NCBI GenBank assembly: GCA_029557535.1
Contig: JAKQII010000353.1
Coordinates: 1-33,883, forward strand
Reading direction: 5' to 3'
Source of the DNA: Acidobacteriota bacterium
GTDB taxonomy: Bacteria; Acidobacteriota; Blastocatellia; Pyrinomonadales; Pyrinomonadaceae
DNA: 33,883 nt
Shown piece by piece: positions 181-33,011 of the stretch (position 1 is its first letter; the number at the start of each line of letters is the position of its first letter). A model generated the notes under the pieces. The model searched no databases, had not been told where the DNA came from, and saw only the letters and a list, made by a program, of their open reading frames with translations. The translations under genes were made by a program, and so were the position numbers.

Positions 181-373
181 TTCAGGATTCAAAATTCAAG
201 ATTCAAGAAGTTCCAAACCATTTCGATTGGTCGGAATTTTGATGCCGAAATCGTCGAAGTCGTTGAAATTCATTTCGCTCGAACAAAATGCCGTCCGATA
301 GACATCGAACGGCATCTTACACAATCGCTGCGCGTTTTCAGTCGTTCTTGATTCTTGAATTTTGAATCTTGAA
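181..373. repeat. Inverted pair of AT-rich word repeats (R1)
   Basis: The left arm at 181-210 is built from the words ATTCAAG, ATTCAAAA and TTCAAGA. The right arm at 345-373 is its near-perfect reverse complement (TTCTTGA, ATTTTGAATC). About 134 bases separate the arms, and a terminator-like hairpin lies between them. The right arm ends 14 bases from the stop codon of the aminotransferase, and the left arm begins 14 bases upstream of the phosphodiesterase start. It is one of several similar loci in the window. Confidence 0.8.
283..315 (-). terminator. Rho-independent terminator of the aminotransferase
   Basis: A 12-bp stem (288-299 with 304-315, one mismatch) closes on a 4-base loop. On the minus strand it is followed by ATTTTGTT, giving a short U-rich tail. 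It lies about 70 bases downstream of the aminotransferase stop codon, inside the R1 inverted repeat. Confidence 0.55.
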
Positions 374-387
374 CCTGGACTCCGCTA

Positions 388-1530
388 TTACCTCAAAGCG
401 CCCCGCAACTTCTCCATCGCGCCTTCAAGAATGGAATCCTCACGGGCGATGCAGATCCGGACAAACGCGTCCCAGTTGTCGGAGTCGGCGAACGCGCTGC
501 CCGGCACCATTCCGACACCGGCCTTCTCCATCAGCATCTCGTTGAACTTCAGCGCGTCCGAAAACTGTTTCGGGATCCGCGACCAAAGATAGAACGACGA
601 ACCGGTATTCATGATCTCGAATCCGAGTTCGGTCAGCGCGGAGGATACGAACTTCTGCTTCTCTTCAAACTTTGCTCGCAGCGCCGTGTAATATCCCGGA
701 GTCGCCATCAACACCTTAGCCAGCGCGGCCTGGAGCGGCGTCGCCGGACAAACAAAGACGACGTTCGCAGCGTTGTTGACCTTTTGCACCAACTCGCCCT
801 TACCGTAACAGTAGCCAAGACGCCATCCGGAGATATTCCATGATTTCGAGAACGAATTGACCGTGATCGTGCGGTCCCACATTCCCGGAAGCGTCGCGAT
901 CGGGATATGCGGGTGGTCCTCAGAAACGTAATGCTCGTAAACTTCGTCAGAGATCACCAGTAGGTCGAGTTCCTGGGCGACCGCGCCGATCGCTTCGAGC
1001 TCGATCTGCGACATCACCTTGCCGGACGGATTCGCCGGCGAGCAAACAACGATCGCCTTGAGCGGAAACTCCGCGCGCGTCTTGAGTTCACGGCAACGCG
1101 CGAGCAGCGCATCCTTGTCGAAGCCGAGGTGTCGGTCCAGTTCGAATGTTTCGGTCTTGCCGCCGAACTCTTCGAGAATACGACGGTGATACGGATAGTA
1201 AGGCTCGAAGACGAGCGCCGACTTGCCGCGCAGATAGCTCATGGCGATGCCGATGAGCGCGCCGGTGCCGCCGTTGGTGATCATCACTTCGATCGGTTTC
1301 GCGTCAACGTCCACCATGACGCCGTTGTATTTGGCGATCTTTTCCGCGACTGCACGCCGCAAGTTGGCGTCGCCCTCTGAAGCTCCGTAATGATTTCGGC
1401 TGGCGGCGATGATCTCGGCCGCTTCCTTCGCGAGCTGCGGATCGATCGGGAGTTCCGACTGTCCCTGAACGAGGTTGCCGCTCGGCGGAACAAGACGCGT
1501 TATCGCACGGATATCGGGTTTGATCTTCAT
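388..1530 (-). CDS. Class I/II pyridoxal-phosphate aminotransferase
   Basis: This is a fold-type I PLP aminotransferase of about 380 residues, the normal family length. The Schiff-base lysine is in the motif SFSKSWNISGWRLGY (K229 from this start). Upstream are the PLP-contacting NHYGASEGDANLR region, an SPANPSGKV motif and the SDEVYEHYV aspartate/tyrosine block, and the C-terminal arginine region (VRICIARED) is present. The overall pattern resembles aspartate or branched/aromatic aminotransferases, but the substrate cannot be told from sequence alone. I chose the ATG at 1530 because AGAAG sits 8 bases upstream. ATGs at 1548 and further out extend the frame without adding recognisable sequence. 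It is transcribed away from the P450 and appears monocistronic, ending at the terminator near 300. Confidence 0.9.
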   Translation of the reverse strand: MKIKPDIRAITRLVPPSGNLVQGQSELPIDPQLAKEAAEIIAASRNHYGASEGDANLRRAVAEKIAKYNGVMVDVDAKPIEVMITNGGTGALIGIAMSYLRGKSALVFEPYYPYHRRILEEFGGKTETFELDRHLGFDKDALLARCRELKTRAEFPLKAIVVCSPANPSGKVMSQIELEAIGAVAQELDLLVISDEVYEHYVSEDHPHIPIATLPGMWDRTITVNSFSKSWNISGWRLGYCYGKGELVQKVNNAANVVFVCPATPLQAALAKVLMATPGYYTALRAKFEEKQKFVSSALTELGFEIMNTGSSFYLWSRIPKQFSDALKFNEMLMEKAGVGMVPGSAFADSDNWDAFVRICIAREDSILEGAMEKLRGALR

Positions 1531-1668
1531 CGGTTTCACTTCTGTCATACGTAAAAACATAGCAGTTTTGGGGCAAAAACTCGAAATACGGTGAATTAAA
1601 TCCATGTAACGGCGAGCGTCGCGGTCCACAAAGTGTCACGTTTCAGTGCCGGAGCGGTGAGTCGAATC

Positions 1669-1677
1669 TGCTAAAAT
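1669..1677 (+). promoter_or_regulatory. Extended -10 element of the P450 gene
   Basis: TGCTAAAAT is an extended -10 box (TGn plus TAAAAT at 1672-1677). I see no good -35 at the usual spacing. Only 6 bases separate the box from the GTG at 1684, and there is no Shine-Dalgarno sequence, so transcription would begin at or within a base or two of the start codon. The same nine bases recur in front of the foldase gene at 25399-25407. Confidence 0.45.
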
Positions 1678-1683
1678 CAATCC

Positions 1684-3030
1684 GTGGCAAACTTAGTTCC
1701 GCCAAGCGTAAAGCCGGGAATCCTCGGGGGTCATTTCATCAAGTTTCGGAGCCGTCCGACGGAGTTCTTGTCGGATTTGGCCGAACTCGGCGACGTCACC
1801 ACGTTTCGTCTCGGCGGTCAACGATCCTACTTTCTCAACAATCCCGAAATGGTGCGCGACATGCTCGTCGTTTCGCACCATAAATTCGTCAAGGGACGTG
1901 CGCTCCAGCGCGCCAAACGGCTTCTCGGCGATGGGCTTTTGACGGCCGAGCACGAGTTCCATCTGCGCCAGCGGCGCATGATCCAGCCGGCTTTTCACCG
2001 GCAAAGGATCGCTGACTACGCGCGGTCGATGGTCGAATACGGCGAGCGCCTTTCCGATCGCTGGAAGGACGGCGAGACGCTTGATATCGATCAGGAAATG
2101 ATGCGGCTGACACTTCAGATCGTCGCGAAGACGCTCTTCAGCGCGGATGTCGAGGGCGACGCCGACGAAGTCGGGCAGGCGATGACGAATCTCATCAATC
2201 TGTTCAATTACCTGCTTTTACCGTTTTCCGAATTTCTCGAAAAGATCCCGCTGCCGCAAACGCGTCGTTTTCGGAACGCGAAGGACACGCTCGACAACGT
2301 GATTTACAAGTTCATCCGCGAGCGGCGCGAATCCGGCGAGAACACTGGCGACCTGCTCTCGATGCTGCTCGCGGCGCGTGACGAGGACGACGGCGGACGG
2401 ATGACCGACGAGCAGGTTCGGAACGAAGCCCTGACGCTGTTCCTCGCCGGCCACGAGACAACGGCGAACGCGCTGACGTTCACGTGGTATCTGCTTTCGG
2501 AAAATCCCGCGGCGGAAAAGAAGCTGCATGAAGAACTCGACCGCGTGCTCGGCGGCCGCGCGCCGACGGTCGAGGACCTGCCGAGCTTGAAATACACGGA
2601 AGCGGTGCTTGCCGAGTCGATGCGCCTATATCCGCCGGCTTGGGCGATCGGGCGGCTTTCGACCGAAGATCATGCGTTCGGCGGCTTCGACGTTCCGCGC
2701 AATTCATTGGTTCTCGTTTCGCCGTTCGTGACACAGCGCGATCCGCGATTTTGGGACGAGCCTTTGAAATTCGAACCGGAACGCTGGTTCGATCAGTCGG
2801 TGAAAGAGGCGTCGAACCGATTCATCTATTTCCCGTTCGGCGGCGGTGTCCGGCGCTGCATCGGCGAACAGTTCGCGTGGACCGAGGGCATCTTGCTGAT
2901 CGCGTCGATCGCTCGGAACTGGCGTCTCAGACTCGATCCGGAACAAAAGATCGGACTCAAGCCGATGATCACGCTGCGACCGAAATACGGAATGCGGATG
3001 AAGATCGAGCGACGGAACAGTGAGCGGTAA
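1684..3030 (+). CDS. Cytochrome P450
   Basis: A 448-residue soluble P450 monooxygenase with all signature motifs. The C-helix stretch is HLRQRRMIQPAFH (about 93-105), the I-helix oxygen-activation motif AGHETT is at about 255-260, the K-helix ExxR (ESMR) at 311-314, and the heme loop FPFGGGVRRCIG carries the thiolate ligand Cys392. The AFH-type C-helix and the AGHETT motif resemble the CYP4/CYP102/CYP110-like bacterial group, which hydroxylates fatty acids, alkanes or terpenoids. The actual substrate is not readable, and no redox partner gene is adjacent. The start is GTG with no ribosome binding site. The last residues (NSER and the TAA stop) are written in the GTGAGC-type repeat that begins at 3018, so the native C-terminus may have been altered. 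Confidence 0.95.
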   Translation: MANLVPPSVKPGILGGHFIKFRSRPTEFLSDLAELGDVTTFRLGGQRSYFLNNPEMVRDMLVVSHHKFVKGRALQRAKRLLGDGLLTAEHEFHLRQRRMIQPAFHRQRIADYARSMVEYGERLSDRWKDGETLDIDQEMMRLTLQIVAKTLFSADVEGDADEVGQAMTNLINLFNYLLLPFSEFLEKIPLPQTRRFRNAKDTLDNVIYKFIRERRESGENTGDLLSMLLAARDEDDGGRMTDEQVRNEALTLFLAGHETTANALTFTWYLLSENPAAEKKLHEELDRVLGGRAPTVEDLPSLKYTEAVLAESMRLYPPAWAIGRLSTEDHAFGGFDVPRNSLVLVSPFVTQRDPRFWDEPLKFEPERWFDQSVKEASNRFIYFPFGGGVRRCIGEQFAWTEGILLIASIARNWRLRLDPEQKIGLKPMITLRPKYGMRMKIERRNSER

Positions 3031-3112
3031 GCCGTGAACGGTGAGCAGTGGCCGGGAGCGGCGCTGTCAGAACCGGGAGCGGCAGCGACCGGGTTTCCTG
3101 AAAGGATGCACG
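3018..3112. repeat. GTGAGC-type and CCGGGAGCGGC-type word arrays (R2)
   Basis: At 3018-3049 the words AGTGAGCGG, CCGTGAACGG and GTGAGCAGTG follow one another. At 3051-3112 come two copies of CCGGGAGCGGC and further GGGAG/CCGGG words. The array fills the 103-base gap between the convergent P450 and vapC genes and overlaps the P450 stop codon. Unlike the other loci, no clear inverted partner is visible. The GTGAGC words match those at 20912-21025, about 18 kb away. Confidence 0.75.
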
Positions 3113-3133
3113 CGGATCCGGGAGAAAGCGCTC

Positions 3134-3559
3134 TTAAATGACTTCGAATTCGAAGTTTCGAAACTCGCGGAGCAACGTGAAATCCCGGGCGTTCGCAGTC
3201 ACGATCCTTATTCCGAGCCTTCCGGCGGTAGCGGCAAGAAGCGCATCGTTCGTTAGTTTCTGTTTGCCAATTCGGTCGAAACCATACTTCCGCCCGATTT
3301 TGTTCAAAATCAGACCAGTCGAAGTCCAATCCGATTGATTCGGTACGATCAGCCGATTGACTTTGCTGAAGCTCTCTTCAAATGTTCGCAGAGCCTTCAG
3401 GCTTTTCGTGTCGGCGGCGCCGGCGAACAGTTCCTCGACCACAACCGCACAGAGATAGATCCGGTTCGTCGAGCCAGAACTGTTTCGTAAGTTCGGGCGA
3501 TCGTCTTGTCTTAATGAACGAATGTAGAATGAGGTGTCAAATAGGATCTTTTGAGTCAT
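3134..3559 (-). CDS. PIN-domain toxin, VapC-like
   Basis: A 141-residue PIN-domain ribonuclease, usual length for VapC toxins, which cleave specific RNAs using Mg2+/Mn2+ held by acidic residues. The expected acids are present: Asp8 in ILFDTSFYI, Glu42/43 in VVVEELFAGA, Asp105 in LTNDALLAATA, and Asp126 in TANARDF. Its ATG overlaps the stop of the upstream antitoxin in an ATGA, so the two are translationally coupled. It converges on the P450 gene across repeat R2. Neither catalytic acids nor frame are disrupted, so the toxin looks functional. Confidence 0.88.
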   Translation of the reverse strand: MTQKILFDTSFYIRSLRQDDRPNLRNSSGSTNRIYLCAVVVEELFAGAADTKSLKALRTFEESFSKVNRLIVPNQSDWTSTGLILNKIGRKYGFDRIGKQKLTNDALLAATAGRLGIRIVTANARDFTLLREFRNFEFEVI

Positions 3560-3783
3560 TTCGCTTCCAGCGCGCCGAACACGTCGTGAATGTCGATTCC
3601 GCTCCTCAGGAATCGTTCGGTCGCTTCATCTGTGAGTCTGTCCTTTTCGCTTTCAGAAATCACTCTGTCAAGAGCGAACTCGATCGTTTCGGTTTCTGTT
3701 TTTGCTCCCAAAATTCTCTTGGCCATCGTGAGTTTTGTTTGATTGAGAATCAAATGCTTTCGTCGTTTATGTTCGGGTTCCAC
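3556..3783 (-). CDS. VapB-like antitoxin
   Basis: A short (about 75 residues) partner encoded directly upstream of the PIN toxin with a 4-base overlap. The core KHLILNQTKLTMAKRILGAK followed by TETETIEFALDRVI is the beta-strand plus helix-turn-helix pattern of ribbon-helix-helix VapB/DUF2191-type antitoxins. The C-terminal part (FLRSGIDIHDVFGALEAK) would be the toxin-binding tail. In-frame starts exist at 3819 (TTG), 3813 (ATG) and 3792 (ATG). The predicted promoter overlaps all of these, so I favour the GTG at 3783, which would be almost leaderless. The start is uncertain; the family and role are well supported by context. Confidence 0.75.
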   Translation of the reverse strand: MEPEHKRRKHLILNQTKLTMAKRILGAKTETETIEFALDRVISESEKDRLTDEATERFLRSGIDIHDVFGALEAK

Positions 3784-3819
3784 GATGCACATAATAGAAG
3801 AAATTATGTGCATCGTCAA
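3782..3819 (-). promoter_or_regulatory. vapBC promoter and palindromic operator
   Basis: A perfect 14-bp inverted repeat (3782-3795 and 3803-3816, 7-base spacer) contains the core GATGCACATAAT and its complement. On the minus strand TTGACG (3819-3814) and TATTAT (3796-3791) are exactly 17 bases apart, a good -35/-10 pair covered by the palindrome. This is the arrangement expected for autoregulation of a type II toxin-antitoxin operon by the antitoxin. Confidence 0.7.
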
Positions 3820-4061
3820 TCATCGTTGGACCCAAGGAACGCAATTAATAGGTGACTTCGCGCGCGAACTTTCGCCAGTTTCGCGAACCACGTGGGCGAT
3901 TTCCATTTCGTTTCGGTAAATGTCGTTGCGGACAATTCGCGTCGATCGGCGGAGATTCGCGGGCAAGGGTCTCACATTTGGTCTTCGGTTGATTCAGTCC
4001 TGATTTTCCCCGTTTTGGCGTTGCGGACACACTCGCGCTAAACTCAGCTCAAATCAAAGCC
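3820..4061. other. Divergent intergenic region without a recognisable gene
   Basis: The 240 bases between vapB (-) and the M14 carboxypeptidase (+) hold no convincing gene. A 61-codon minus-strand frame here has a lysine/arginine-rich, low-information sequence and no family signal. No word-repeat array is present. CGCTAAACT at about 4034-4042 may be the -10 region of the carboxypeptidase gene. Confidence 0.4.
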
Positions 4062-6440
4062 ATGAGAATCAACAGACTCGTTTTCGTCGCATTTCTTCTT
4101 CTTTTCGCCTGTTCCGCGTTCGCCCAAACGGTCCCGACGCCGAAGGACGTTCTCGGGTTCACGCCCGGCGAGGACCGCAAGCTCGCCTCGTGGAGCCAGA
4201 TCGTCGATTACTTCAAGAAGCTCGACGCGGCGAGCGATCGGGTGAAATTCCAGGAGATCGGCAAGACGACGATGGACAAGCCGTTCGTTTACGCGACTAT
4301 CTCGAGCCCGGCGAATCTCAGGAACCTCGAGGCGATCAAACTCGCGAACGCGAAACTTGCCGATCCGCGGTTGATCAGGTCGAACGACAAAACGGCCGCC
4401 GAGCTGATTAGGAACGGCAAAACGATCGTGCTGATCACCTGCGGCATCCACTCGACCGAGGTCGGCGCGTGGATGTCGTCGATGCTCATCGCGGATCAAC
4501 TCGCGCGCGCGACCGATCCTGAAACGAAGAAGATACTCGAAAATACGGTCATCCTGCTCGTGCCGTCGCTCAATCCGGACGGCGTCGATATCGTCAAGAA
4601 CTGGTACGACAAAACTCTCGGCACGCCATACGAGGGCACGAGCCCGCCTGAGCTTTATCACAAATACACCGGCCACGATAACAACCGCGACTGGTACGCG
4701 TTCACGCAGGTCGAAACTCAGATGACCGTCGACAAGATCCACAACGTCTGGCATCCGCAGATCGTCCACGACATCCATCAGCAGGGCGCTAACGGCGCAC
4801 GCCTTTTCCTGCCGCCGTATATGAAACCGGTCGAACCGAACGTTCCGAAGGAGATCGTCGAGGGCTACACCGAACTCGGGAATTACATGGCGACGACTCT
4901 TCGCGAGAAAGGTTTCGAGGGCATCACGACCGATTCGACGTACGACGCGTGGACTCCGGCGCGCGCCTATTCGCATTATCACGGCGGCGTCAGGATACTT
5001 TCGGAAACGGCGTCCGCAAGGCTCGCGACGCCGATCGAGGTCACGTTCGATCAGCTCCGGCCCGGTCTGTTTTTCGATCCAAAGAAGGAAACGCCGAACT
5101 TCGGTCCGATCTGGAAGGGCGGAAAATGGGGACTCCCCGATATCACGAAGTACATGACCGCCGCGGCGCACCAACTGCTCAAACATGCGTCGGACAATCG
5201 CGAGGCTTGGCTCAAACGGTTCTATGCGATCGGCAAGGAAGCGGTAAGACCGCGGAAAGACGGGGAGACGTATGGTCTCAAGATCAAGACCGGGGACAAT
5301 GTCCCTATTCTGCTGAGTATTCTTGAACGTGCAGGTGTGCAATACGGCTTTCCCAAGGGAGAGAAAACGACGAAGGTCAAGGATCTGAGCTACTTCGATT
5401 CCGTCACAACGTACCCTTCGGAATCCGTGATCGTACCATCCCGGCAGCCGTATTGGGCGTTTGCGAAGGCCATGTTGGAGAGTCAGGAATATCCCCACTT
5501 ACTTGATAAGGATCAGAATCCAATTCCGCCGTACGATGTAACCGCGCATAGTGTAAATTTGCTGATGAATGTGTCAGTCAGCGAGATCAAGGCCCCCTTC
5601 AAACCCGATTGGATCAAACACGGCCGAGTTGAGGACGCGATCTCGGATTGTATGTTGGGACAGCACAAAACCGGACTTTATCGATCGCAAATTCCAGTAA
5701 TGGACGAGGGCTGGACTAGATGGACGCTGGAGAAGATGGGGATTTGCGAAGAATTCGAGAGTGTTACAGATAGCGAGATCCGAACCGGGGATTTCAACCA
5801 AAAGAAGCCGCCATTTGGAAATTTACCCGAGAGACTTCGCCCGGCTTCTGCGAAGGACCCGAGATACCGGACGATCGTCTTCCCCGACCAGAATCCGAAT
5901 CAGATCCTGAACGGCTACGCGAAAGGCTCGATGCCGGACGAACTGACCGGCGGGATCGGAAAAGACGGCGTCGCGAACCTCAGGAAGTTCGTCGAGGACG
6001 GAGGGACGCTAGTCTTTCTGAACCGCGCATCGGACTTTGCGATCCGCGAGTTCGGCCTGCCTGTCCGCGACGTCACCGACGGCCTGCCGCGAAAGGACTT
6101 CTACATTCCGGGATCGATCCTGCGGACGATCATTGATACGAAGCATCCGATCGCGGAGGGGATGCCGGCCGAATCGATCGCCTGGTTCGAGAACTCACCC
6201 GCGTTTGAGGTCACGACCAGTGACGACACGAACGTCGAGATCGTCGCCCGGTATCCCGAAAAGGCGTCCGATATACTTCTTTCAGGATGGGCGCTCGGCG
6301 CCGAGAAGATCGCCGGCAAAGCGGCGCTCGTCTCGATCAACGTCGGCAAAGGCAGGATCGTCCTCTTTGGCTTCCGGCCGCAGTACCGCGGCCAATCGCT
6401 GGCGACGTTTCCACTCTTTTTCAACGCGATTGGAAGATAG
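4062..6440 (+). CDS. Secreted M14-family zinc carboxypeptidase
   Basis: A 792-residue exported metallopeptidase. Residues 1-22 are a Sec signal peptide ending AFAQ. The M14 domain follows: zinc ligands His130 and Glu133 in GIHSTEVGAW and His236 in IVHDIHQQG, the substrate-carboxylate Asn/Arg in HDNNRDWY (Arg209), and the general-base glutamate probably in RILSETAS. The C-terminal third, after about residue 600, looks like a glutamine-amidotransferase-type alpha/beta domain often seen fused to these large M14 proteins. It should trim peptides in the periplasm. Between about 5250 and 5850 codon choice changes clearly (AGA arginine, TTA leucine, GTA valine, more A/T third positions) while the frame stays open. 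The start is the only ATG giving a complete signal peptide, with a weak ribosome site. Confidence 0.9.
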   Translation: MRINRLVFVAFLLLFACSAFAQTVPTPKDVLGFTPGEDRKLASWSQIVDYFKKLDAASDRVKFQEIGKTTMDKPFVYATISSPANLRNLEAIKLANAKLADPRLIRSNDKTAAELIRNGKTIVLITCGIHSTEVGAWMSSMLIADQLARATDPETKKILENTVILLVPSLNPDGVDIVKNWYDKTLGTPYEGTSPPELYHKYTGHDNNRDWYAFTQVETQMTVDKIHNVWHPQIVHDIHQQGANGARLFLPPYMKPVEPNVPKEIVEGYTELGNYMATTLREKGFEGITTDSTYDAWTPARAYSHYHGGVRILSETASARLATPIEVTFDQLRPGLFFDPKKETPNFGPIWKGGKWGLPDITKYMTAAAHQLLKHASDNREAWLKRFYAIGKEAVRPRKDGETYGLKIKTGDNVPILLSILERAGVQYGFPKGEKTTKVKDLSYFDSVTTYPSESVIVPSRQPYWAFAKAMLESQEYPHLLDKDQNPIPPYDVTAHSVNLLMNVSVSEIKAPFKPDWIKHGRVEDAISDCMLGQHKTGLYRSQIPVMDEGWTRWTLEKMGICEEFESVTDSEIRTGDFNQKKPPFGNLPERLRPASAKDPRYRTIVFPDQNPNQILNGYAKGSMPDELTGGIGKDGVANLRKFVEDGGTLVFLNRASDFAIREFGLPVRDVTDGLPRKDFYIPGSILRTIIDTKHPIAEGMPAESIAWFENSPAFEVTTSDDTNVEIVARYPEKASDILLSGWALGAEKIAGKAALVSINVGKGRIVLFGFRPQYRGQSLATFPLFFNAIGR

Positions 6441-6512
6441 TCTGGGGTCGCCCTCTCGGGCGGCAAGGTGAAATCCGGAAATCGTTGTAGTATAGCCGCA
6501 CGGAGAAAAACG

Positions 6513-7082: not shown

Positions 7083-7119
7083 CTGCGGCTTTCATTATTA
7101 GAACCAGAGAGGTAAACCA

Positions 7120-9208: not shown

Positions 9209-10477
9209 ATGATCGAGGCGATCGAAACAACGAAATTCCCGAACGGACTGACGATCCTTACTGACCGCATGCCGGGTGTGCGGTCGGCGACCATCGGATT
9301 TTTCTTCAAAACCGGCGCGCGGCACGAGCCCAAAGAACTCAGCGGGATTTCGCATTTCATCGAACACGCGGTCTTTAAGGGCACGCGAACGCGGAACGCG
9401 CTCGAGATCGCGATCGAGACCGACCGGCTCGGCGGCAATTTCGATGCCTTCACCATGCACGAGGAAACGGGCTTCGCGATGAAGGTCATCGACAGCGAGT
9501 TGCCGAAGGCGTTCGAACTGCTCGCCGATCTTCTGACCGATCCGCTTTTCGACGAGAAGGAACTCAAACGCGAACAAAGGGTAATCATCGAAGAAATAAA
9601 GATGACGGACGATTCGCCCGAGGAGTACCTTCACGAGATCTTCAACGAAAAGCTCTTCCCCGGCCATCCGTTGGGACGCCCGATCGCCGGCACGCCGAAA
9701 ACGGTTCGCACCTTCGGCCATGACGTAACGAAGAAATTCCACAAAGAGTTGTTTTGCCCGTCGAACCTGGTCATCGCGGCCGCCGGAAACGTCGATCACG
9801 GTCAGATCGCCGACCTCGCGAACACGTATTTCGGCATTCAACCGTCGCAAATCCGCAATTCCAAATCCGAAATCCCAAATGTGACGGCTCCGATCGTTCT
9901 GAAAAAGAACAAAACGCTCGAGCAGGCGCATCTGATCATCTCGACGCCGTTCGTTTCGGCGACGAGCGAACGTCGGTACGCCGCAGACATCCTCGCTAAC
10001 GCGCTCGGCGGCGGAACGTCTTCGCGGCTATGGCAGAAGATCCGCGAGGAAAAAGGACTCGCCTACTCGGTCGGCGCGAGCGCCGCGATGTATCAGGACT
10101 GCGGGGTGTTCACGATATTCGCCGGAACGTCGCCGAAGCAAACCGAGCAGGTTCTGAAGATCGCGCTCAAAGAAATGCGGTCGTTAGTCCGTGACGGGAT
10201 CACGCCGGACGAACTTGATCTGATGAAGGCCCAGACCGTGTCTTCTATCCTGCTGGGACTCGAAGATTCAGCCAACCGCGCATCGACGCTGGCCCGACTG
10301 GAAATGGTTCACGGGCGGCAAATTCCGCTCGAAGAGACAATTAGGAAGGTAGAAAGTGTCACAGTCGACGAAGTACGCTCGATCGCGATCGATTACTTTC
10401 AAACCGAGAACATCGGATTCGGCGCGCTTGGCGATCTCAACGGGTTCAAAGTCACGCGGGCCCGCCTCGAAGTTTGA
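9209..10477 (+). CDS. M16-family zinc peptidase (processing-peptidase type)
   Basis: A 422-residue single-unit M16B peptidase, the typical bacterial length. The inverted zinc motif is His49-Phe-Ile-Glu52-His53 in GISHFIEHAVFKGT. The distal acid is in QRVIIEEIKM, and the second domain carries the ANALGGGTSSRLWQKIREEKGLAYSVGA segment typical of processing peptidases. No signal peptide is seen, so it probably acts in the cytoplasm. TGCTAGATT lies 15 bases before the ATG, and GAAG may serve as a weak ribosome site. Residues 214-224 (QIRNSKSEIPN) are encoded by a short-word array at 9848-9881 like those found between genes. It sits in the linker between the two halves, where an insertion could be tolerated. 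Confidence 0.92.
   Translation: MIEAIETTKFPNGLTILTDRMPGVRSATIGFFFKTGARHEPKELSGISHFIEHAVFKGTRTRNALEIAIETDRLGGNFDAFTMHEETGFAMKVIDSELPKAFELLADLLTDPLFDEKELKREQRVIIEEIKMTDDSPEEYLHEIFNEKLFPGHPLGRPIAGTPKTVRTFGHDVTKKFHKELFCPSNLVIAAAGNVDHGQIADLANTYFGIQPSQIRNSKSEIPNVTAPIVLKKNKTLEQAHLIISTPFVSATSERRYAADILANALGGGTSSRLWQKIREEKGLAYSVGASAAMYQDCGVFTIFAGTSPKQTEQVLKIALKEMRSLVRDGITPDELDLMKAQTVSSILLGLEDSANRASTLARLEMVHGRQIPLEETIRKVESVTVDEVRSIAIDYFQTENIGFGALGDLNGFKVTRARLEV
9848..9881 (+). repeat. In-frame word-repeat array inside the M16 gene (R4)
   Basis: The 34 bases are composed of the words CAAATCCGCAATT, CCAAATCCGAAATCCC and CAAATG. Nearly the same words make up the intergenic array at 27798-27833. Length and phase keep the M16 frame open, adding residues 214-224. 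Confidence 0.75.
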
Positions 10478-10517
10478 ACAACCAAGCCGCGTAAGTCGTT
10501 TAAGTCAGGAGGAAACG

Positions 10518-11183: not shown

Positions 11184-11898
11184 CGTAAGATATCGGGTCA
11201 TCAATGCCCGCACGTGCAAAGCCGCGAAGGCGAAGTGCGCACGAATCGCAAGTCCCGCACGCGACGTCTTCGCTACGATAACACGACCAGGAGAGTTCAA
11301 GCGGCGCTCCCAACTCGATCCCTTTCTTCACGATCTCCGCTTTCGAAAGATCAATGATCGGCGTAACGATCCGAATGATCGTGCCAGGTCTCGTTCCGGC
11401 TTCGATAGTTCTCTCGAACGCGTCGAAAAACTCGCGCCGGCAGTCGGGATAGCCGCTCGAATCCTCGGCGACGGCGCCAATGTAGATCGAAGGCGCGCCA
11501 ATCACTTCCGCCCAGCTCGTTGCAATCGAGAGAATATTCGCGTTCCGGAACGGCACGTAGCTCGTCGGAATCTCCTTGTTCCCGAGGTCGGCCTCGGTGA
11601 CTTCCATCGAACGGTCCGTGAGCGACGACCCGCCGATCCGCGCAAGGTGTTCGATCGACACGTCTAGCCTCCTTTCAGCGCCGTAATAATCCGCGATCTC
11701 GTTGAACGCTTGCCGTTCACGCGCTTCGGTCCGTTGGCCATAGTTGACGTGGAGGAACGCAAGTTCTTCGTAATCCCGGCGCGCGATCGCGGCGGTCACG
11801 CAGGAGTCCATCCCGCCGGAAACGAGAACGATGGCGAGTTGGGGAACGGGAGAGTGGGGGAGCGGGAGAGCGCTCCTCTTCACTTCTTCGGTGTCCAT
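11164..11898 (-). CDS. queC: 7-cyano-7-deazaguanine (preQ0) synthase QueC
   Basis: QueC is an ATP-dependent cytoplasmic enzyme that converts 7-carboxy-7-deazaguanine and ammonia to preQ0, the precursor of queuosine. The PP-loop SGGMDS is at residues 27-32, followed by [12 protein letters not shown]. Near the C-terminus the zinc-binding cysteines are in [16 protein letters not shown]. Its substrate is made by QueE, encoded upstream on the same strand. Normal QueC proteins begin only a few residues before the PP-loop. Here residues 1-20 ([20 protein letters not shown]) come from the end of a truncated four-helix-bundle gene and a GGGAGAGT word array. No start codon lies between that array and the PP-loop, so the extension seems obligatory. 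The 3' end overlaps the convergent membrane-protein gene by 20 bases. Confidence 0.93.
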
Positions 11899-12105
11899 TT
11901 GTTTGGGTCGTTAATCATCCTGACCTGCTGACCGAGTACTTGATCATATTCTCGATCGAATCGGTCGCAGTCGCTCTGACAAATGTATCCGCATCGAAAA
12001 GAAAACTCCAACCAGACGCGGGTCTCCTCAGCCTCCGATTCTGCATCGCTCAACTTGCTGACGAAAATTCGCCGGATATCCACTCTCCCCTTCACCCACT
12101 CTCCC
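11841..12105. repeat. GGGAGAGT word arrays bracketing a truncated gene (R5)
   Basis: On the plus strand 11841-11870 reads as GGGGAACGGGAGAGTG plus GGGGAGCGGGAGAG. At 12080-12105 the reverse complement appears (CACTCTCCCCTTCACCCACTCTCCC). The two arrays are therefore inverted and enclose about 210 bases with the four-helix-bundle remnant. The right array abuts the queE stop codon, whose TAG is part of TAGGGAGAGT. The left array is read as residues 10-19 of QueC. Confidence 0.8.
11880..12095 (-). pseudogene. Four-helix-bundle (S23/IVP-like) protein, C-terminal remnant
   Basis: The 71-codon frame ends with the recognisable second half of the S23/four-helix-bundle family: FVSKLSDAESEAEETRVWLE followed by FSFRCGYI, then [19 protein letters not shown]. 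Family members are usually about 115-130 residues; here the first two helices are absent. The frame begins at a GTG inside the inverted word array, whose codons supply MKGRVDI, so the 5' half has been replaced rather than shifted. The stop lies within the first codons of queC (19-base overlap). Relatives include proteins encoded in 23S rRNA intervening sequences and Avd proteins of diversity-generating retroelements. Whether this remnant is still translated is unknown; it sits in an active queE-queC transcript. Confidence 0.65.
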
Positions 12106-16042: not shown

Positions 16043-16251
16043 TAGTTTACCTCTTAACTAAGTTCGAAATTTTTCTTCCCGCGGGTTGTTATCTATTCGT
16101 AGTTTGAACCTTCGATTCGGTTGCTTTGACCACCGATTAATTTTTTTCGCCATGCGTGACCGACGATGCGTTACCGCCATCCGCGCGGCGGCCGCCGTTC
16201 ACGACAATACGGCGTTTTGGGTTAGAATCGATGCAACAAGGAGACGTCAAT

Positions 16252-17553: not shown

Positions 17554-17646
17554 ACGGTAGACGGTAGACGGTAGACGGATTCTTGCCTTTCAATCGCAAA
17601 TTGCAAATTGAAAATCGCAAATCAAGGGTCTACTGCCTACCGTCTA
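17551..17646. repeat. TAGACGG tandem array with inverted partner (R6)
   Basis: Four exact tandem copies of TAGACGG fill 17551-17578. At 17626-17646 the minus strand reads TAGACGG, TAGGCAG and TAGACCC, giving an inverted partner. Between them (17591-17623) are ATCGCAAATT/GCAAATTG words. The first TAG on each strand is the stop codon of the converging gene: the Xaa-Pro aminopeptidase and the M16-like protein. The arms can pair as a long hairpin and could act as a bidirectional terminator, although no T-run follows. Confidence 0.9.
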
Positions 17647-19014: not shown

Positions 19015-19030
19015 TTTCGACCGAGGCTCC

Positions 19031-20707: not shown

Positions 20708-20923
20708 ATGGAACGAGACAATTTGATGCATGGGGCCCGGACAGCGATGAACCGCAGCCCCGAGATCCGCGAATGGGCGGAGAACTATCTGAAGGCGAAA
20801 ACACGTACCGAAAACGAGTCGATGTCGGACGAGGAATTCGAAAAATACTGGAAGTACCACAAGCCCGAGATCATGCACGCCGGCGCCGCTGAAGCGATCG
20901 AGGCTTATAAGAGTGAGCGGTGA
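20708..20923 (+). CDS. Small acidic helical protein, unknown function
   Basis: A 71-residue frame from the ATG at 20708, with AAGGA just upstream. It is hydrophilic and rich in Glu, Lys and Ala (REWAENYLKAKTRT, EEFEKYWKYHKPEIMH), predicted mainly helical, with no cysteines or membrane segment. I do not recognise a family. Composition and codon choice match real genes nearby. It is divergent from the M16 pair and convergent with the nuclease. Its last three residues, SER, and its TGA stop are written in GTGAGC repeat words, as in the P450 gene. The native C-terminus may therefore have been different. Confidence 0.55.
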   Translation: MERDNLMHGARTAMNRSPEIREWAENYLKAKTRTENESMSDEEFEKYWKYHKPEIMHAGAAEAIEAYKSER

Positions 20924-21028
20924 GCAGTGAGCGGTCGATTTGCAATTTTCGATTTGCAATTTGCGATCGTTCGATCAGACCGACGGCTTTCTGCTTGCTG
21001 CTCACGGCTCACTGCTCACTGCTCACTG
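20912..21028. repeat. GTGAGC word array with inverted partner (R7)
   Basis: At 20912-20933 the plus strand reads AGTGAGCGGTGAGCAGTGAG and on. At 20998-21028 the minus strand reads CAGTGAGCAGTGAGCAGTGA followed by GCCGTGAGCAGC. Between them are TCGATTTGCAATT words (20935-20966). The stop codons of the small gene (20921-20923) and the nuclease (21023-21025) are both the TGA of a GTGAGC unit. The arms can form a long hairpin between the convergent genes. Confidence 0.9.
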
Positions 21029-22897
21029 AATATTGAAGATCGCCAGCGCCGAGTCGTGGTCCGAAAATCGTTCGACGCGGTTCGGATCGTTCCTGTAAAT
21101 CTCAGGGAAATCGGAGTTGATGTGGGCGAATCCGAATCCGACCACATTCTTCCGGAACGGACCGTTGACGATGAAGTGATCGAGAACCTGGCCATTGCCG
21201 TCGAACACATATGAATAACGTTTCTTCGGATCGATCAAATCCACGAGGTTAACAAGATCCGATTCGACCAGATCATCCATCGGGACGATCAGCGAATCCT
21301 TGGCGGCCGGAGTGCCTTTGATCGTTCCGATAACGTCCATGATCCCGTCGCTGAATTGATAGAAGTTGAAATCGCCGATCAGGGCGATCCTCTCGTTCGG
21401 ATTCGCCTTCTGGCGCTCGTTGACGAATTTGGCGAGGAACTCGGCCTGGAGCTTTTTTTTCATCCTCACGAACGGCGCGTCCTTTTCGTCATCGTAACCA
21501 CGAAACGACTTCAGATGGTTCACTATTACGGTGAACTCGAACGGCGTCCCACCGTTCTTGATCGATGCACGCAGCAGAAACGGCGGCCGGTCGTTCAAAT
21601 GGACATCGTTCTTTGATACGGGGTTCTTGAATTCGTCGTCCTTTCCGAACTGCACGGTCTCGAGGACCTCTACACGCGATCTTTTCACAAGGAACCCGGA
21701 ATCGATTCCGCCCGGATCGTTTCCTTCGACGAGATACGCGTCATACTTCGGATTTTCGGCACCCGACAGTTCAACATCCTTGTTGATCCGCTCGGCCAGA
21801 CGTTTCAATGCCGACAGGTTCTCGGCCTCGACCATTCCAATGACATCCGGCATTTTCAGATACATGCGGATCGCCCGTGAGATCTTCTTGAGCCGCCGGT
21901 CGAATCCATCGCGGGTGATGATCGGCTCCTTGACGTCGGGATCGTCCTCATCGTCAAAGAAACGTTCGATGTTCATCGACGCGATCGAAAGTTGGTTATC
22001 CTTGGGCGACGGAAGCGCCGATGCCTCCATGAGCCCGGAAACCTCTGGCTTGTTGTCGGGGTCGAGACGCACGGCGTAGGCGCGGTAAATGTAATCGACC
22101 ACGCCGGTGAGGTTCTTGACCGTTGCGCCGGTAGAGACGTCGATCGCCTGTCCGCCCAGCTGCCCCATGCTCTCGATCCTGATTCGCTCCGGGTTGTGAT
22201 CGAAAATCGGGATCTTCGGGGAATCGCGCTTGAGCTTGTCCTTTTCCTTGTCCGGCATCAGCAAGTAACTCAGAATGTCGAGACCCGGTTCGCGAAACGG
22301 CCGCTGGAAACCCGGCAAAACTCCGTAAAACGCGCCGCTCGATGCGGACGTCCCGTTCACTTCGTCAACCGAACCGCGCTTGTCGGTCGGCGCAACGACG
22401 CTGACCTCGCGGATCGTTACCCGCATTCCTTCATACTTTTCGAGTTGGTTGACGACCAAAGGCTTAAAATCTTCCATCGTGAGGACGACCGGTTTCGGCA
22501 GCGCGTTGTCCTTCGACTCGACCGCGACAAGATCGCGCCCGCTCTGCATCGAAATCTCGGTGATGGTCAGGCTCGACGGATCGCCGAATTCCTTGACTTC
22601 CCCGGTCACGGTTACGAGATTTCCGACCGTCGCCTCGCCGCCCGGTTCGGTTTTCGTGAAGACATAGATCGCCTCTGACGTCTTCGGATTGTCGTCAACC
22701 TTGTCATCCGGATTTTGAATAAAGAACCCGGCCCTTGTCCGCGCGGTAACGATACCCGTCACGCGCACGATCTCGCGTACGTACGGCGAGATGTCTTTAT
22801 CACCTTGAATCTCATTGATCTGCCGGGACCGCTGCGCCGACGCATCTACCGCAAGCAAACACAGAATTCCAAATAACCCAATGATGGCTCGTTTCAT
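21023..22897 (-). CDS. Secreted endonuclease/exonuclease/phosphatase-family nuclease
   Basis: A 624-residue exported protein. The signal peptide covers about residues 1-22 (KRAIIGLFGILCLLAVDASAQ). An OB-fold-like segment (about 30-120: VRVTGIVTARTRAGFFIQNP) is followed by a linker region and an EEP nuclease domain (about 300-624). The nuclease motifs are present in order: SIASMNIERFF, VIGMVEAEN (metal-binding Glu), VNHLKS, IGDFNFYQFSDG (Asp/Asn) and the C-terminal SDHDSALAIF (Asp-His). This arrangement matches extracellular nucleases of the ExeM/NucH type, which degrade DNA or RNA outside the cell. The ATG at 22897 places the signal peptide at the N-terminus; an ATG at 22912 adds five residues. 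The stop codon lies in the R7 repeat. Confidence 0.88.
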   Translation of the reverse strand: MKRAIIGLFGILCLLAVDASAQRSRQINEIQGDKDISPYVREIVRVTGIVTARTRAGFFIQNPDDKVDDNPKTSEAIYVFTKTEPGGEATVGNLVTVTGEVKEFGDPSSLTITEISMQSGRDLVAVESKDNALPKPVVLTMEDFKPLVVNQLEKYEGMRVTIREVSVVAPTDKRGSVDEVNGTSASSGAFYGVLPGFQRPFREPGLDILSYLLMPDKEKDKLKRDSPKIPIFDHNPERIRIESMGQLGGQAIDVSTGATVKNLTGVVDYIYRAYAVRLDPDNKPEVSGLMEASALPSPKDNQLSIASMNIERFFDDEDDPDVKEPIITRDGFDRRLKKISRAIRMYLKMPDVIGMVEAENLSALKRLAERINKDVELSGAENPKYDAYLVEGNDPGGIDSGFLVKRSRVEVLETVQFGKDDEFKNPVSKNDVHLNDRPPFLLRASIKNGGTPFEFTVIVNHLKSFRGYDDEKDAPFVRMKKKLQAEFLAKFVNERQKANPNERIALIGDFNFYQFSDGIMDVIGTIKGTPAAKDSLIVPMDDLVESDLVNLVDLIDPKKRYSYVFDGNGQVLDHFIVNGPFRKNVVGFGFAHINSDFPEIYRNDPNRVERFSDHDSALAIFNIQ

Positions 22898-23022
22898 AAG
22901 TTGATCGTTCAAACGACGAACGTCGTCCTGTTTCGATGATTGAATTCTACTTCGCGCAGATAAAAAGTATGTGAAGAATCTAACACAGGCCTGAATCGAT
23001 TCCGAGTCGGCGCGACCGAACC

Positions 23023-25328: not shown

Positions 25329-25337
25329 AGTGGACTA

Positions 25338-25407
25338 ATTTAACCCACCGCCGTTACGAAAGTCCAAGACCTGTCGACATTGGACTTTAAGAGCGTATCT
25401 GCTAAAA
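25338..25407. promoter_or_regulatory. Divergent terC / foldase promoters sharing a palindrome
   Basis: A 9-bp inverted repeat, AAAGTCCAA (25359-25367) and TTGGACTTT (25380-25388), has a 12-base spacer. Its right arm supplies TTGGAC, which lies 17 bases before TAAAAT (25403-25408 region) for the foldase gene. Its left arm supplies TTGGAC on the minus strand, 18 bases before TTAAAT (25343-25338) for terC. Both -35 boxes are therefore parts of one palindrome, so a dimeric regulator bound there could control both directions. Confidence 0.6.
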
Positions 25408-25465
25408 TCGCGGTTTGTCCCAGCAGGCAAGTTGGTTCCAATCTTTTTCGTATAGGTATTTCAGG

Positions 25466-27466: not shown

Positions 27467-27872
27467 GAATTTCGATTTCAGGGATTTGGGATTGGCTTCC
27501 GGACGTCGGGTTCGGGAGCCATTTTCCATTTGGGATTTGGGGTTTGGGATTGCGAATTGGATGCAGAAACGCGCACGAAGTAAGCGTGCATGCTCGCGGA
27601 GCGAGCAATCTCATGTGAAAATTGGGATTCTCAGTTCGCGCTGTTTCGCGTTGAATGGTGGTCGCTCTCGTCAGATGTAATTTGGTGTTCCCGCATTGAC
27701 GCGAAGTCGCAAAGAACGGAATTCGATTGCGGAGACGCGCGGCGTTCAGGTCCTCGGAACCGAGCTCGATTGATCGTCCCCAGATGAATTCGTAGATCCG
27801 AAATCCGCAATCCGAAATCCCACATCCCAAATGGAAAAGGGGCGGCCCGAAGACCGCCCGAATGATTCAAGA
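27467..27872. repeat. 406-base convergent gap filled with word arrays (R8)
   Basis: No gene is seen here; a 147-codon minus frame is just translated repeat. At 27468-27494 are ATTTCGATTTCAGGG/ATTTGGGATTGG words. At 27526-27560 a second array (CCATTTGGGATTTGGGG and TTTGGGATTGCGAATTGG) has an inverted partner at 27798-27833 built from AATCCGCAATCCGAAATCCC. Inside lie two hairpins, GCACG/CGTGC (27573-27589) and GCTCGC/GCGAGC (27592-27606), and a GACGCGAAGTCGCAAAGAACGG word run near 27700-27720. The rest is unremarkable. The same words occur inside the M16 gene at 9848-9881. Confidence 0.85.
27832..27859 (-). terminator. Rho-independent terminator of the permease operon
   Basis: On the minus strand GGGCGG and CCGCCC (27859-27854 and 27845-27840) form a 6-bp GC stem with an 8-base loop, followed by CCTTTTCC. 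It lies 14 bases downstream of the permease stop codon at 27873. Confidence 0.6.
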
Positions 27873-29696: not shown

Positions 29697-29720
29697 CTAA
29701 AACCTCCTCGAATTGGTAGA

Positions 29721-31244: not shown

Positions 31245-31351
31245 ATTTTGCGGTTGAACGGAAACGGCACTTGCCCGAGCAATATCGGACAATCTTCCAA
31301 TTAATCAATAAATTGCAAATCTTGTACGTTGGCGAGAAAAACGTTTGAGCT

Positions 31352-31379
31352 ATTATACTTGGATTACAAAAACTGTCGA
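31352..31379 (-). promoter_or_regulatory. Promoter of the permease operon
   Basis: On the minus strand TCGACA (31379-31374) and a perfect TATAAT (31357-31352) are 16 bases apart. Transcription would start near 31345, about 100 bases before the chosen ATG. Further into the gap, CGGATC/GATCCG (about 31405-31420) forms a small palindrome between this promoter and the decarboxylase. Confidence 0.55.
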
Positions 31380-31461
31380 GCGTTTCGGGATGTTTTTGTC
31401 GGATCGCCCGATCCGGCCGAGGAGGCGGTAGAATTCCCTTGCCCGGAACTCGGAAATTACC

Positions 31462-32901
31462 ATGACACAGAAACATAGAGGCGACATGCCGCGAGACGAA
31501 TTTCGTCAATTCGGTCACGAGATCGTTGATTTCATCGCGGACTACTTTGAGAACATCGAATCGTTCCCGGTTCTTTCGCAGAACAAGCCGGGAGATCTGA
31601 CCGCTGCACTTCCGAAATCCGCACCGCTCGCGGGCGAAGATTTCGGCAACGTCATAAAAGATGTCAACAATCTGATCCTTCCTGCGGTCACTCATTGGAA
31701 CCACCCGAATTTTCACGGGCTTTTTTCGACTTCTGCCAGCTCGCCCGGCGTCCTCGGCGAGATGCTCTCGGCAGCGTTCGACATGAAGGCGATGCTTTGG
31801 CGGACCTCGCCGGCATCGACGGAGCTCGAATCCGTCGTCGTCGACTGGCTCAGGCAGATGGTCGGACTTCCCGTCGAATTCAGAGGTCTGATTTACGACA
31901 CCGCTTCGATCTCAACGCTGCATGCGCTCGCGATGGCGCGCGAACGGCTGAATCTCGGAATCCGCGACAAAGGGATGAGCGGACGGACGGATCTGCCGCT
32001 GCTTCGAATCTACTGCTCTGAACACACTCACAGTTCGATTGACAAAGCGGTGATCCTGCTCGGGTTCGGCGCGCGCTCGATCGTGAAGATTCCGTCGAAC
32101 GATCGTTTCGAGATCGATGTCGAGAAGTTGCGCGAGGCGATCGCGGATGACAAAGCGGCGGGTCATTTGCCGCTGTGCGTCGTCGCGACGATCGGCACGA
32201 CCGCGACGACGAGCATCGACAATGTCAATCGCGTCGCGGACATTTGCGAACGAAACGGGATCTTCCTCCATGTCGATGCGGCCTATTCGGGCTCGGCGGC
32301 GATCGTGCCCGAGTTTCAGTCATACTTCAAAGGCTGGGAACGCGCGGATTCGATCGTCATGAACCCCCACAAATGGCTTTTCACGCCGTTTGATCTTTCG
32401 GTTCTATATGTGAAGGATCTGGATCTTTTGAAACAAACGTTCTCGCTGGTCGCCGAATATCTGAAGGTGACCGAGACGGTGATGAACCAGATGGATTACG
32501 GAATCCAGCTCGGACGCCGGTTCCGGTCGCTTAAACTCTGGTTCGTGATGCGGTATTTCGGTCAGGAAGGCCTGATCGCTCGGATCCGCGAGCACTGCCG
32601 GCTGGCGAGACTGTTCGCGAATTGGATTGACGCGGATCCCGATTTTGAGATGATGGCGCCGGTGCCGTTCGCGTTGGTTTGTTTTCGGGCGTGCCCTTCG
32701 GGAGTCGAGGACTTGAACGCGCTCAACGAGCGCATCATGAACGAGATCAACGCTTCGGGCGAGGCTTATCTTTCGCACACGATGCTGAACGGCAAGTTCA
32801 CCTTGCGGCTGTCGGTCGGAAACATCCGCGTCGAAGAGCGACATCTGCAAAAGGTATGGAAGATCCTTAAATCAAAGATTGGGGCAGTCGGTGAGCACTA
32901 G
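31462..32901 (+). CDS. PLP-dependent aromatic-L-amino-acid-type decarboxylase
   Basis: A 479-residue group II decarboxylase, full length. The Schiff-base lysine is K304 in MNPHKWLFTPFDLS, and the PLP-ring aspartate is in FLHVDAAYSGSA. HWNHPNFHGLFSTSASSPGVLGEML and AMLWRTSPASTELE are hallmark blocks of the DOPA/tryptophan/tyrosine decarboxylase group. The active-site loop and C-terminal domain (TLRLSVGNIRVEERHLQ) are intact. It should release CO2 from an amino acid, probably aromatic, giving an amine in the cytoplasm. TAGAAT at 31428-31433 may be the -10 box. The divergent permeases are likely partners, by context only. The stop at 32901 is followed after 32 bases by the R9 hairpin. Confidence 0.92.
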   Translation: MTQKHRGDMPRDEFRQFGHEIVDFIADYFENIESFPVLSQNKPGDLTAALPKSAPLAGEDFGNVIKDVNNLILPAVTHWNHPNFHGLFSTSASSPGVLGEMLSAAFDMKAMLWRTSPASTELESVVVDWLRQMVGLPVEFRGLIYDTASISTLHALAMARERLNLGIRDKGMSGRTDLPLLRIYCSEHTHSSIDKAVILLGFGARSIVKIPSNDRFEIDVEKLREAIADDKAAGHLPLCVVATIGTTATTSIDNVNRVADICERNGIFLHVDAAYSGSAAIVPEFQSYFKGWERADSIVMNPHKWLFTPFDLSVLYVKDLDLLKQTFSLVAEYLKVTETVMNQMDYGIQLGRRFRSLKLWFVMRYFGQEGLIARIREHCRLARLFANWIDADPDFEMMAPVPFALVCFRACPSGVEDLNALNERIMNEINASGEAYLSHTMLNGKFTLRLSVGNIRVEERHLQKVWKILKSKIGAVGEH

Positions 32902-32933
32902 TCAGCCTCTTAAACGCTCTAAGAAGATTCCTG

Positions 32934-33011
32934 CCCGCGAAACACGCAAAATACGCGAAAGACTACTAGGAAATTGTCTATTTTTCGCGTCTTTTCGCGT
33001 ATTTCGCGGGG
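32934..33011. repeat. ACGCGAAA word hairpin (R9)
   Basis: The left arm at 32934-32963 (CCCGCGAAACACGCAAAA and TACGCGAAAGAC) and right arm at 32976-33011 (GTCTATTTTTCGCG and CTTTTCGCGTATTTCGCGGGG) are near-perfect reverse complements around a 12-base loop. Each arm is made of degenerate ACGCGAAA units. It lies between the decarboxylase and the SRPBCC gene and could work as a strong transcript-end hairpin, although only broken T-runs are present. Confidence 0.85.

Follow-up and report, generated by a model that had tools for sequence, protein, structure and literature searches.

The stretch of DNA analysed here (the window) comprises 33,883 nucleotides (nt) and is contig JAKQII010000353.1 (C402) of a genome from the acidobacterial family Pyrinomonadaceae (assembly GCA_029557535.1, here G000), which has been assembled to 4.77 Mb in 404 contigs. 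Scattered along it, chiefly between genes, are arrays of short degenerate words, which at six loci are paired with an inverted array nearby as the two arms of a hairpin. A first-pass annotation had described imperfect arrays at these loci, and a scan of periods 4 to 24 (match +1, mismatch −2, score ≥12) places them far beyond chance: six segments were found at period 7, five at 14 and one at 16, with zero at all other periods, and 100 dinucleotide-preserving shuffles of the window averaged 0–0.03 segments per period. Two arrays (3018–3050 and 27528–27551) lie below this threshold and were detected by Tandem Repeats Finder only. The word length, given earlier as anything from 7 to 15 nt, is better described as a 7-nt unit (heptad) with two exceptions, of 8/16 nt at 11836–11870 and of 8–9 nt at 32934–33010.

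The arrays were set against gene calls made with the author's hexamer script, which is not a published caller, and stems were scored gap by gap, a pair of arms being accepted when its score exceeded the maximum of 20 base shuffles of that gap; gap edges were set by hand and at four gaps were stretched into the neighbouring gene to take in overlapping arrays. The features are given without strand, apart from the plus-strand array at 3018–3050. At the left end, a TTCAAGA-family heptad array (178–209) has its inverted partner at 345–373, and this hairpin (181–209/345–373; stem score 24, shuffle maximum 8.5) spans the tandem gap between two minus-strand genes. A TAGACGG array at 17550–17578 provides both the TAG stop codon of an M24 peptidase gene and the 5′ arm of a hairpin whose 3′ arm, complementary to the TAGACGG words and placed by stem scoring and RNA folding, lies at 17628–17647; the stem 17550–17569/17628–17647 scores 15 and the fold of 17545–17650 reaches −42.5 kcal/mol (z −6.3). 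Similarly, a GTGAGCR array at 20912–20935 provides the TGA stop of a small plus-strand gene (ending at 20923) and pairs with a GTGAGCR-word 3′ arm at 20986–21028 that was recovered by period scan, stem scoring and RNA folding (stem 20912–20935/21004–21027, score 19; fold of 20905–21034, −60.4 kcal/mol, z −6.9). The loops of these two hairpins, 17550–17647 and 20912–21028, each enclose a second heptad array of an unrelated word: AATYGCA at 17592–17623 in the former and ATTTGCA, seen in the period scan, at 20935–20967 in the latter. The convergent gap 27467–27872 contains an ATTTGGG 5′ arm (27519–27558) and an AATCCSA 3′ arm (27796–27841), with a stem 27519–27558/27802–27841 scoring 27.5, and a tandem gap near the right end contains an inverted pair of an 8–9-nt, CGCGAAA-type word (32934–33010; stem 32945–32960/32993–33008, score 13.5; fold of the locus −37.3 kcal/mol, z −6.0). 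The sixth paired locus is a GGGAGAG-type array of period 16, or twice 8, at 11836–11870, the part from 11848 to 11870 having an inverted partner at 12083–12105 (stem score 15.5); it lies in the N-terminal extension of the queC frame, outside the QueC Pfam domain (residues 22–230). It makes up most of that extension, and the real start of the gene may be further in.

Two arrays have no partner. The GTGARCR-type array at 3018–3050 overlaps the stop codon of a P450 gene (ending at 3030) and reaches a stem score of 5.5 against a shuffle maximum of 9, and an AATCCSM-type array at 9848–9880 lies inside an M16 peptidase gene (9209–10477), at about residues 214–224, in a length-variable stretch of the M16 C-terminal Pfam match (172–342). 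The arrays are therefore not strictly extragenic, and the statement that they are confined to gene ends does not hold. The remaining window folds gave z −2.5 (9840–9890), z −1.2 (3010–3133) and z +0.8 (27795–27872, a single arm). The pairing described earlier for six loci was borne out, as was the placement: with the independent gene calls, all four convergent gaps that do not overlap hold or touch an array and none of the six divergent gaps does.

The same architecture extends across the genome and its family. In a 637-kb sample of G000 (13%; score ≥13), period 7 again dominates, with 71 segments against 16 at period 8, seven at period 9 and 0 to 2 at each of periods 4, 5, 6, 10, 11, 12 and 13; segments of longer period mostly represent multiples (48 segments at 14, 15 at 16, 17 at 21, 13 at 24 and 19 at 28). 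The 118 arrays of this sample fall in convergent (16), tandem (51) and divergent (5) gaps, for which the densities are 1.84, 1.26 and 0.30 arrays per kb, respectively; a further 17 lie within called coding sequence or at its ends, and the gaps at contig ends account for the other 29. Several arrays stand at contig ends, where the assembly may have broken. A scan for a reverse-complement partner within 300 nt, proposed as a check in the first-pass annotation, found one for 40 of 101 arrays; a partner in direct orientation was present for 12 of them, and the flanks of another array supplied one for 10 (26 of 127 arrays were left out of this test as being near contig ends or too long). In ten genomes of the family, long stems are present in 28 of the 72 gaps between convergent genes, in 75 of the 329 tandem gaps and in 4 of the 74 divergent ones, with none in 475 shuffled gaps (convergent vs divergent, p = 7e-7; tandem vs divergent, p = 3e-4), these counts including stems not built of heptads, since heptads account for 45 of 82 stems with arms of at least 18 nt in six genomes. 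In tandem gaps the stem starts at a median of 6.5 nt past the stop codon in G000, the medians in other genomes ranging from 0 to 23.5. A typical element has arms of about three to four degenerate 7-nt words (some 22–31 nt) around a loop of about 15–40 nt. The elements are thus placed mainly just 3′ of stop codons and are scarce in divergent, promoter-bearing gaps. The absence from divergent gaps is complete in the window and becomes a depletion genome-wide; the idea of an insertion that avoids promoters agrees with these gap counts, and with the variable presence at a given junction, for instance the ribosomal rplV–rpsC junction described below. A minority of hairpins share this architecture with 9-nt words (AGTCTGGAA, AGTTTGGGA), as at rplC–rplD in the related genome G025 (locus L213) and at 3885–4018 of locus L181 in G002, so that 7 is a preferred unit length and not an obligatory one.

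The clearest view of the elements comes from the ribosomal-protein operon. A stretch of the related genome G013 that had been fetched regardless of arrays turned out to be the str-S10-spc operon, most gaps of which contain a heptad hairpin. The same operon was then examined, wholly or partly, in a further 20 genomes (labelled, like other relatives, by G-numbers, with L-numbers for loci), its genes being placed by tblastn; some stretches are partly incomplete (e.g. L195, L199 and L201). Counting gaps of 45–170 nt and dropping those outside that range, a heptad hairpin is present in 144 of 256 ribosomal gaps from the 21 genomes and in 0 of 256 shuffled controls, the best-filled operons being those of G013 (16 of 18 gaps), G028 (13 of 14) and G018 (13 of 15), with 6 of 12 filled in G000. 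These stems begin at a median of 3 nt past the stop codon (10th–90th percentile −2 to 11) and end at a median of 13.5 nt ahead of the next start. Across nine genomes 64 of 112 ribosomal gaps are filled, against 27 of 225 other tandem gaps of equal length (odds ratio 9.8), and the enrichment is significant by itself in G000, G003, G012, G013, G014 and G022, and not in G009, G016 or G019. Among 122 ribosomal junctions of six genomes, 77 hold one hairpin, 45 none and not one holds two (a count that omits the rplE–rpsH interval, which contains rpsN, and gaps longer than 300 nt).

Two further features of these gaps were observed. In many of them (L203, L209, L202 and L198) a near-constant GCGAACGGAGTGAGCA-like stretch lies between the hairpin and the start codon; it contains a likely ribosome-binding site and may travel along with the hairpin in copying. 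At rpmC–rpsQ and rplO–secY of G012 (L206), and at fusA–tuf of G032 (L205), a REP-like palindrome around AGACTNNAGTCT occupies the place that in other genomes can be taken by a heptad hairpin, as though it were open to hairpins of any sequence.

The words themselves are largely private to one genome yet common to many sites within it. In triplet-pattern searches, hits were counted with overlap inside arrays, so that hits outnumber sites, and each word read backwards served as the control. GTGARCR gave 271 overlapping hits in G000, 0 in three congeners, 125 in G019 and 47 in G004, 16 of the 60 genomes having at least one hit; its backward control gave 0 in G000 and G019 and 1 in G004, and exceeds the query in some other genomes (e.g. 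G020, G028 and G030). CCGTRAA gave 435 overlapping hits in G013, 10 in G004, 2 in G049 and 0 in 33 others (backward control 0), and GATTTTR gave 227 in G018, 176 in G008, 103 in G001 and 55 in G003 (backward control at most 9 per genome). An exact 29-mer of the G018 hairpin word was found in three of 396 Acidobacteriota genomes, all of one class, in a sample that did not include G018, G008 or G015. Of the window's own words, TTCAAGA, AATCC, ATTTGCA and CGCGAAA, together with degenerate AGTAGAC words, recur in the 637-kb sample of G000, in which the GGGAGAG word and the exact TAGACGGTAGAC have no occurrence outside the window. The earlier view that this is not one dispersed repeat family such as REP is right for the set as a whole, though most words are themselves dispersed families.

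Sequence at a given junction turns over between genomes. At rplD–rplW a hairpin is found in G013 alone, in a gap of 88 nt, the interval in the other genomes examined being −8 to 13 nt (leaving aside that of G028, misplaced by tblastn), and at rplR–rpsE it is found in G028 alone, in a gap of 106 nt, with −14 to 21 nt in the others and 50 in G010. At rplP–rpmC of G015 and rplN–rplX of G003 the junction is likewise lengthened, with a weaker stem below the threshold. At rplV–rpsC, where the flanks are alike, G001 has 83 nt with a hairpin and its congener G003 has 12 nt without one. Where a junction is filled in many genomes the words differ, forming seven clusters in 16 genomes at rplW–rplB and nine in 15 at rpsQ–rplN. 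The arrays are hence not ancient and fully conserved, a possibility that had been raised against the first interpretation, and neither are they equally frequent in divergent gaps. Outside the operon, the orthologues of the window gene at 16156–17553 were followed through 35 named loci: a post-stop period-7 array was seen in L223 and 9-nt arrays in L219 and L228, the remaining loci having no array in the stretch scanned, and a GGATGAG hairpin was recognized by eye in the same gap of G017 (L121).

Comparison of whole elements indicates that copies arise inside a genome, the vertical signal being weaker. Word families are shared by 18.6% of 623 same-genome pairs, by 6.3% of 654 same-junction pairs across genomes and by 2.6% of 9019 other pairs, and near-identical elements occupy two gaps of G003; together these suggest that elements have been copied from site to site inside a genome. 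The CCGTGAA elements of G013 (L161) have a common loop-proximal stem resembling GACAAG/CTTGTC around a varying loop core, which supports common descent of the copies.

The two arms of an element also mirror one another in detail. In 123 ribosomal heptad stems the arms are complementary at 88.5% of positions, compared with 78.2% identity between adjacent units and 77.7% complementarity when the arms are shifted by 7 nt. The observed register beats a shuffled unit order in 88 of the 123 stems (16 ties), and in 32 of 45 stems of the genome set (5 ties), the observed register being the best by choice and the unit-shuffled arms having been scored identically. Variant units are therefore mirrored in register between the arms, which is not what independent growth of the two arms would yield. 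The 5′ arm is usually the G-rich one, with G exceeding C in 103 of 131 ribosomal heptad stems, C exceeding G in 23 and the two equal in five (36, 8 and 2 in the genome set), and stems not built of heptads have no significant bias (4 vs 4; 26 vs 15, p 0.12). No inside-out pair of elements was found at the family threshold. An array pair on a Nostoc sequence (L254, near 18901 and 19054) has the opposite polarity, C-rich arm first, and counts against a fixed polarity.

The reading that we prefer, at a probability of roughly 60%, is that the arrays are dispersed palindromic elements with heptad arms, copied whole within a genome to the 3′ ends of genes and kept there as tolerated or useful transcript hairpins. 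The sequence facts are strong, and dispersal by copying of whole elements is well supported. A complete hairpin at one gene end would serve as the DNA template for a copy at another, for instance through conversion or template switching from palindrome to palindrome, and the number of units would then be altered by 7-nt slippage. Once transcribed, an intercistronic hairpin would be at least harmless, and could plausibly separate, protect or mark for cleavage the ends of neighbouring cistrons. Such a role would be independent of sequence, so that any word, even an unrelated REP hairpin, could serve. Some function of the hairpins in mRNA is plausible, and a role as 3′-end hairpins, which had been suggested for the window arrays, is possible.

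Several observations weigh against this reading. Some relatives have few or no elements, with 0 of 10 ribosomal gaps filled in G019 and 0 of 6 in G020, and G014 has decayed heptad stems in 6 of 12 ribosomal gaps and 0 arrays in 72 kb of other sequence. The comparison of ribosomal with other tandem gaps is partly confounded, since promoters may be present in the latter, and gaps that belong to a single operon are not independent of one another. Not every array is paired, and some are found within coding sequence, that at 9848–9880 among them. Arm mismatches, counted in the transcript sense, comprise 65 G–U and 106 A–C in array-bearing gaps of 45–170 nt (37 and 26, respectively, in gaps without a detected array, related copies not being independent in either count), and without an excess of G–U over A–C selection for pairing at the RNA level is not demonstrated. 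Finally, no copying enzyme among the candidates tested (PF01797 and RVT_1) explains the arrays generally.

The simplest alternative is neutral growth of simple sequence, in which slippage makes 7-nt repeats anywhere, these survive where no promoter or coding sequence is harmed and pairing arises by chance inversion. Heptanucleotides are indeed the commonest long simple repeats in most bacterial genomes studied (Mrazek 2007, as cited in PMC4679880), and the depletion of divergent gaps, the unpaired and coding arrays and the array-rich G008, in which mutS1 is not above the cut-off, all fit such a process. Against it, the two arms match each other better than adjacent units match within an arm, the essential ribosomal-protein operon is enriched and not depleted, with at most one hairpin at each of 122 junctions, and the same word recurs at many sites while missing from congeners. 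Loss of mismatch repair was rejected as a general explanation, because mutS1 is above the cut-off in 34 of 36 genomes, including the array-rich G013, G018 and G022, the other exception being G007, which is 78% complete. Neutral growth is on balance unlikely. A process that copies local sequence by fold-back or reverse-transcription-like synthesis, as the first-pass annotation had proposed, we hold to be more improbable still: the mirrored arms fit palindromic copying or fold-back, as would the whole-element similarity between two sites of G003, but the words are common across the genome and largely private to it, so that copying of local sequence is not supported. Nor is the co-occurring reverse transcriptase that had been envisaged needed, as no RVT_1 match was found in the array-bearing G000, G003, G013, G018 and G022; one or two matches occur in G001, G002, G009 and G012, among others, and reverse transcriptase was rejected as a general explanation.

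In favour of movement as REP palindromes by a Y1-type transposase (RAYT), the arrays are palindromic, extragenic and multicopy and G000 has 11 matches to PF01797 (Y1/RAYT). Heptad arrays lie 258–656 nt from the transposase match at three of 22 loci (L134, L041 and L140), and at L135 short TAGACG words flank the transposase on both sides, as if the unit had entered a heptad hairpin. At the remaining 18 loci a period-7 array is missing from the 700 nt around the match, the nearest palindromes in six G000 flanks (L134, L135, L136, L137, L016 and L041) are of other sequence than the heptads, and G013, with 0 matches where 31 of 36 genomes searched have some, ranks among the densest genomes, at 59 arrays per 100 kb, or 35 when its ribosomal stretch is left out. 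RAYT was thus rejected as the general mover, barring a divergent transposase that the PF01797 model would miss, and this account is very improbable. The six G000 flanks contain several unrelated REP palindromes, and ordinary REP systems coexist with the heptad hairpins. Equally hard to credit is that the elements are intrinsic transcription terminators at gene 3′ ends: their sites just past stops and in convergent gaps and the three very stable folds in the window would suit that role, but of 120 stems in the ribosomal set only two have a T-rich tract (at least 6 T in 9 nt) after them, and the elements lie within a normally co-transcribed operon. The supply of stop codons was also considered as the reason for word choice and set aside, as several 5′-arm words contain no stop codon.

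A bolder proposal can be put forward tentatively, and we rate it as possible but doubtful: that Pyrinomonadaceae punctuate their transcripts with a sequence-independent post-stop hairpin written in genome-private heptad words, and that DNA copying from palindrome to palindrome is progressively rewriting an essential ribosomal operon, one hairpin per junction. What matters is that many heptanucleotide repeats here resolve into mirrored-arm hairpins after stop codons in a highly conserved bacterial operon. Since the same junction carries different words across genera, the family amounts to a natural experiment on a large scale, with sequence replaced and structure retained. Two questions thereby become testable: the means by which such repeats are spread, and the effect of a hairpin lying between the cistrons of a ribosomal-protein operon.

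Unrelated to the arrays, the window has at 3134–3819 a gene for a PIN-domain toxin, a small reading frame that precedes it and, in front, a perfect 14-bp palindrome (3782–3795/3803–3816); this palindrome, in the divergent gap 3443–4062, is as expected of a toxin–antitoxin operator.

Among known repeats, the REP/BIME/REPIN group resembles the heptad hairpins in consisting of extragenic palindromes that are intercistronic and present in many copies. Its members are moved by RAYT and are not known to have a repeated 7-nt unit; G013, without a Y1 match, is in contrast rich in heptad hairpins. The TAACTGA heptamers of marine Beggiatoaceae, some of which lie in ribosomal-protein operons, are patchily distributed across phyla and form 169 sets in the main genome, one of them indirect and the others direct, mostly just ahead of start codons (PMC4679880). 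They are thus a single direct word near starts, whereas Pyrinomonadaceae have many words, inverted and after stops. The GGGNATC repeats of Xanthomonas and Nostoc are described as rare between divergent genes and as lying up to 50 bp downstream of a stop on the sense strand or ahead of a gene on the antisense strand (PMC4692102); G-quadruplexes were proposed for them, one word type having been studied. That placement is the one expected from the G-rich 5′ and C-rich 3′ arms of a single hairpin, as in the Pyrinomonadaceae stems, and the downstream-sense and upstream-antisense GGGNATC sites could be two arms of one element. Most Pyrinomonadaceae words differ in pairing as arms and in lacking G-runs, which in the window are absent from most words and present in the ATTTGGG and GGGAGAG arrays. 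The abundance of heptanucleotide repeats has been known since 2007, and no agreed function is named in PMC4679880 or PMC4692102. Hairpins of this kind in Acidobacteriota have no account in the open-licence literature as far as its accessible text goes, subscription papers not being covered.

The closest likeness is to the heptanucleotide (STRR-type) repeats of Nostocales cyanobacteria. In the P6b stem of the Nostoc trnL intron the underlying heptad motif is either TDNGATT or NNTGAGT; the two replace one another, and their origin is stated to be unknown (PMC4476775). Both systems have a 7-nt unit, stem arms made from the repeat and unrelated word classes that swap at one site, and both P6b motif classes are matched in Pyrinomonadaceae hairpins, by GATTTTR and, in G018, GATGAGT. 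When the G018 GATTTTR hairpin was searched by BLAST (E limit 10; 59 plasmid records matched, the best 40 of which were examined), the matches listed included plasmids of Nostoc, Tolypothrix and Calothrix at E 1e-7 to 8e-4; all matches listed at E ≤8e-4 were cyanobacterial, and both arms occur in order in at least seven cyanobacterial records. Weak matches, which may be due to chance, were to a Chloroflexota plasmid (E 0.1), Emticicia, Borreliella and others. This search for shared cyanobacterial words covered one word family, GATTTTR. A 100-kb sample of Nostoc plasmid sequence, half of it picked around a hit, has 10 segments at period 7, three at 14, two at 21, and a single segment at each of 15, 18 and 24; none of its 10 arrays is in a divergent gap, and a single heptad stem starts 10 nt past a called stop. 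The Pyrinomonadaceae repeats differ in filling many ribosomal gaps with hairpins, in having many words per genome and in standing at stop codons, the cyanobacterial sequence scanned for comparison being from plasmids. The window arrays consist, like STRR-type repeats, of degenerate 7-nt tandem units that are mostly intergenic, dispersed and present in many copies, and we class them with the cyanobacterial heptanucleotide repeats, as a variant with mirrored hairpins at stops that pervades the ribosomal operon of many relatives. Similar repeats are thus known from cyanobacteria, though as gene-end punctuation the heptad hairpins look new.

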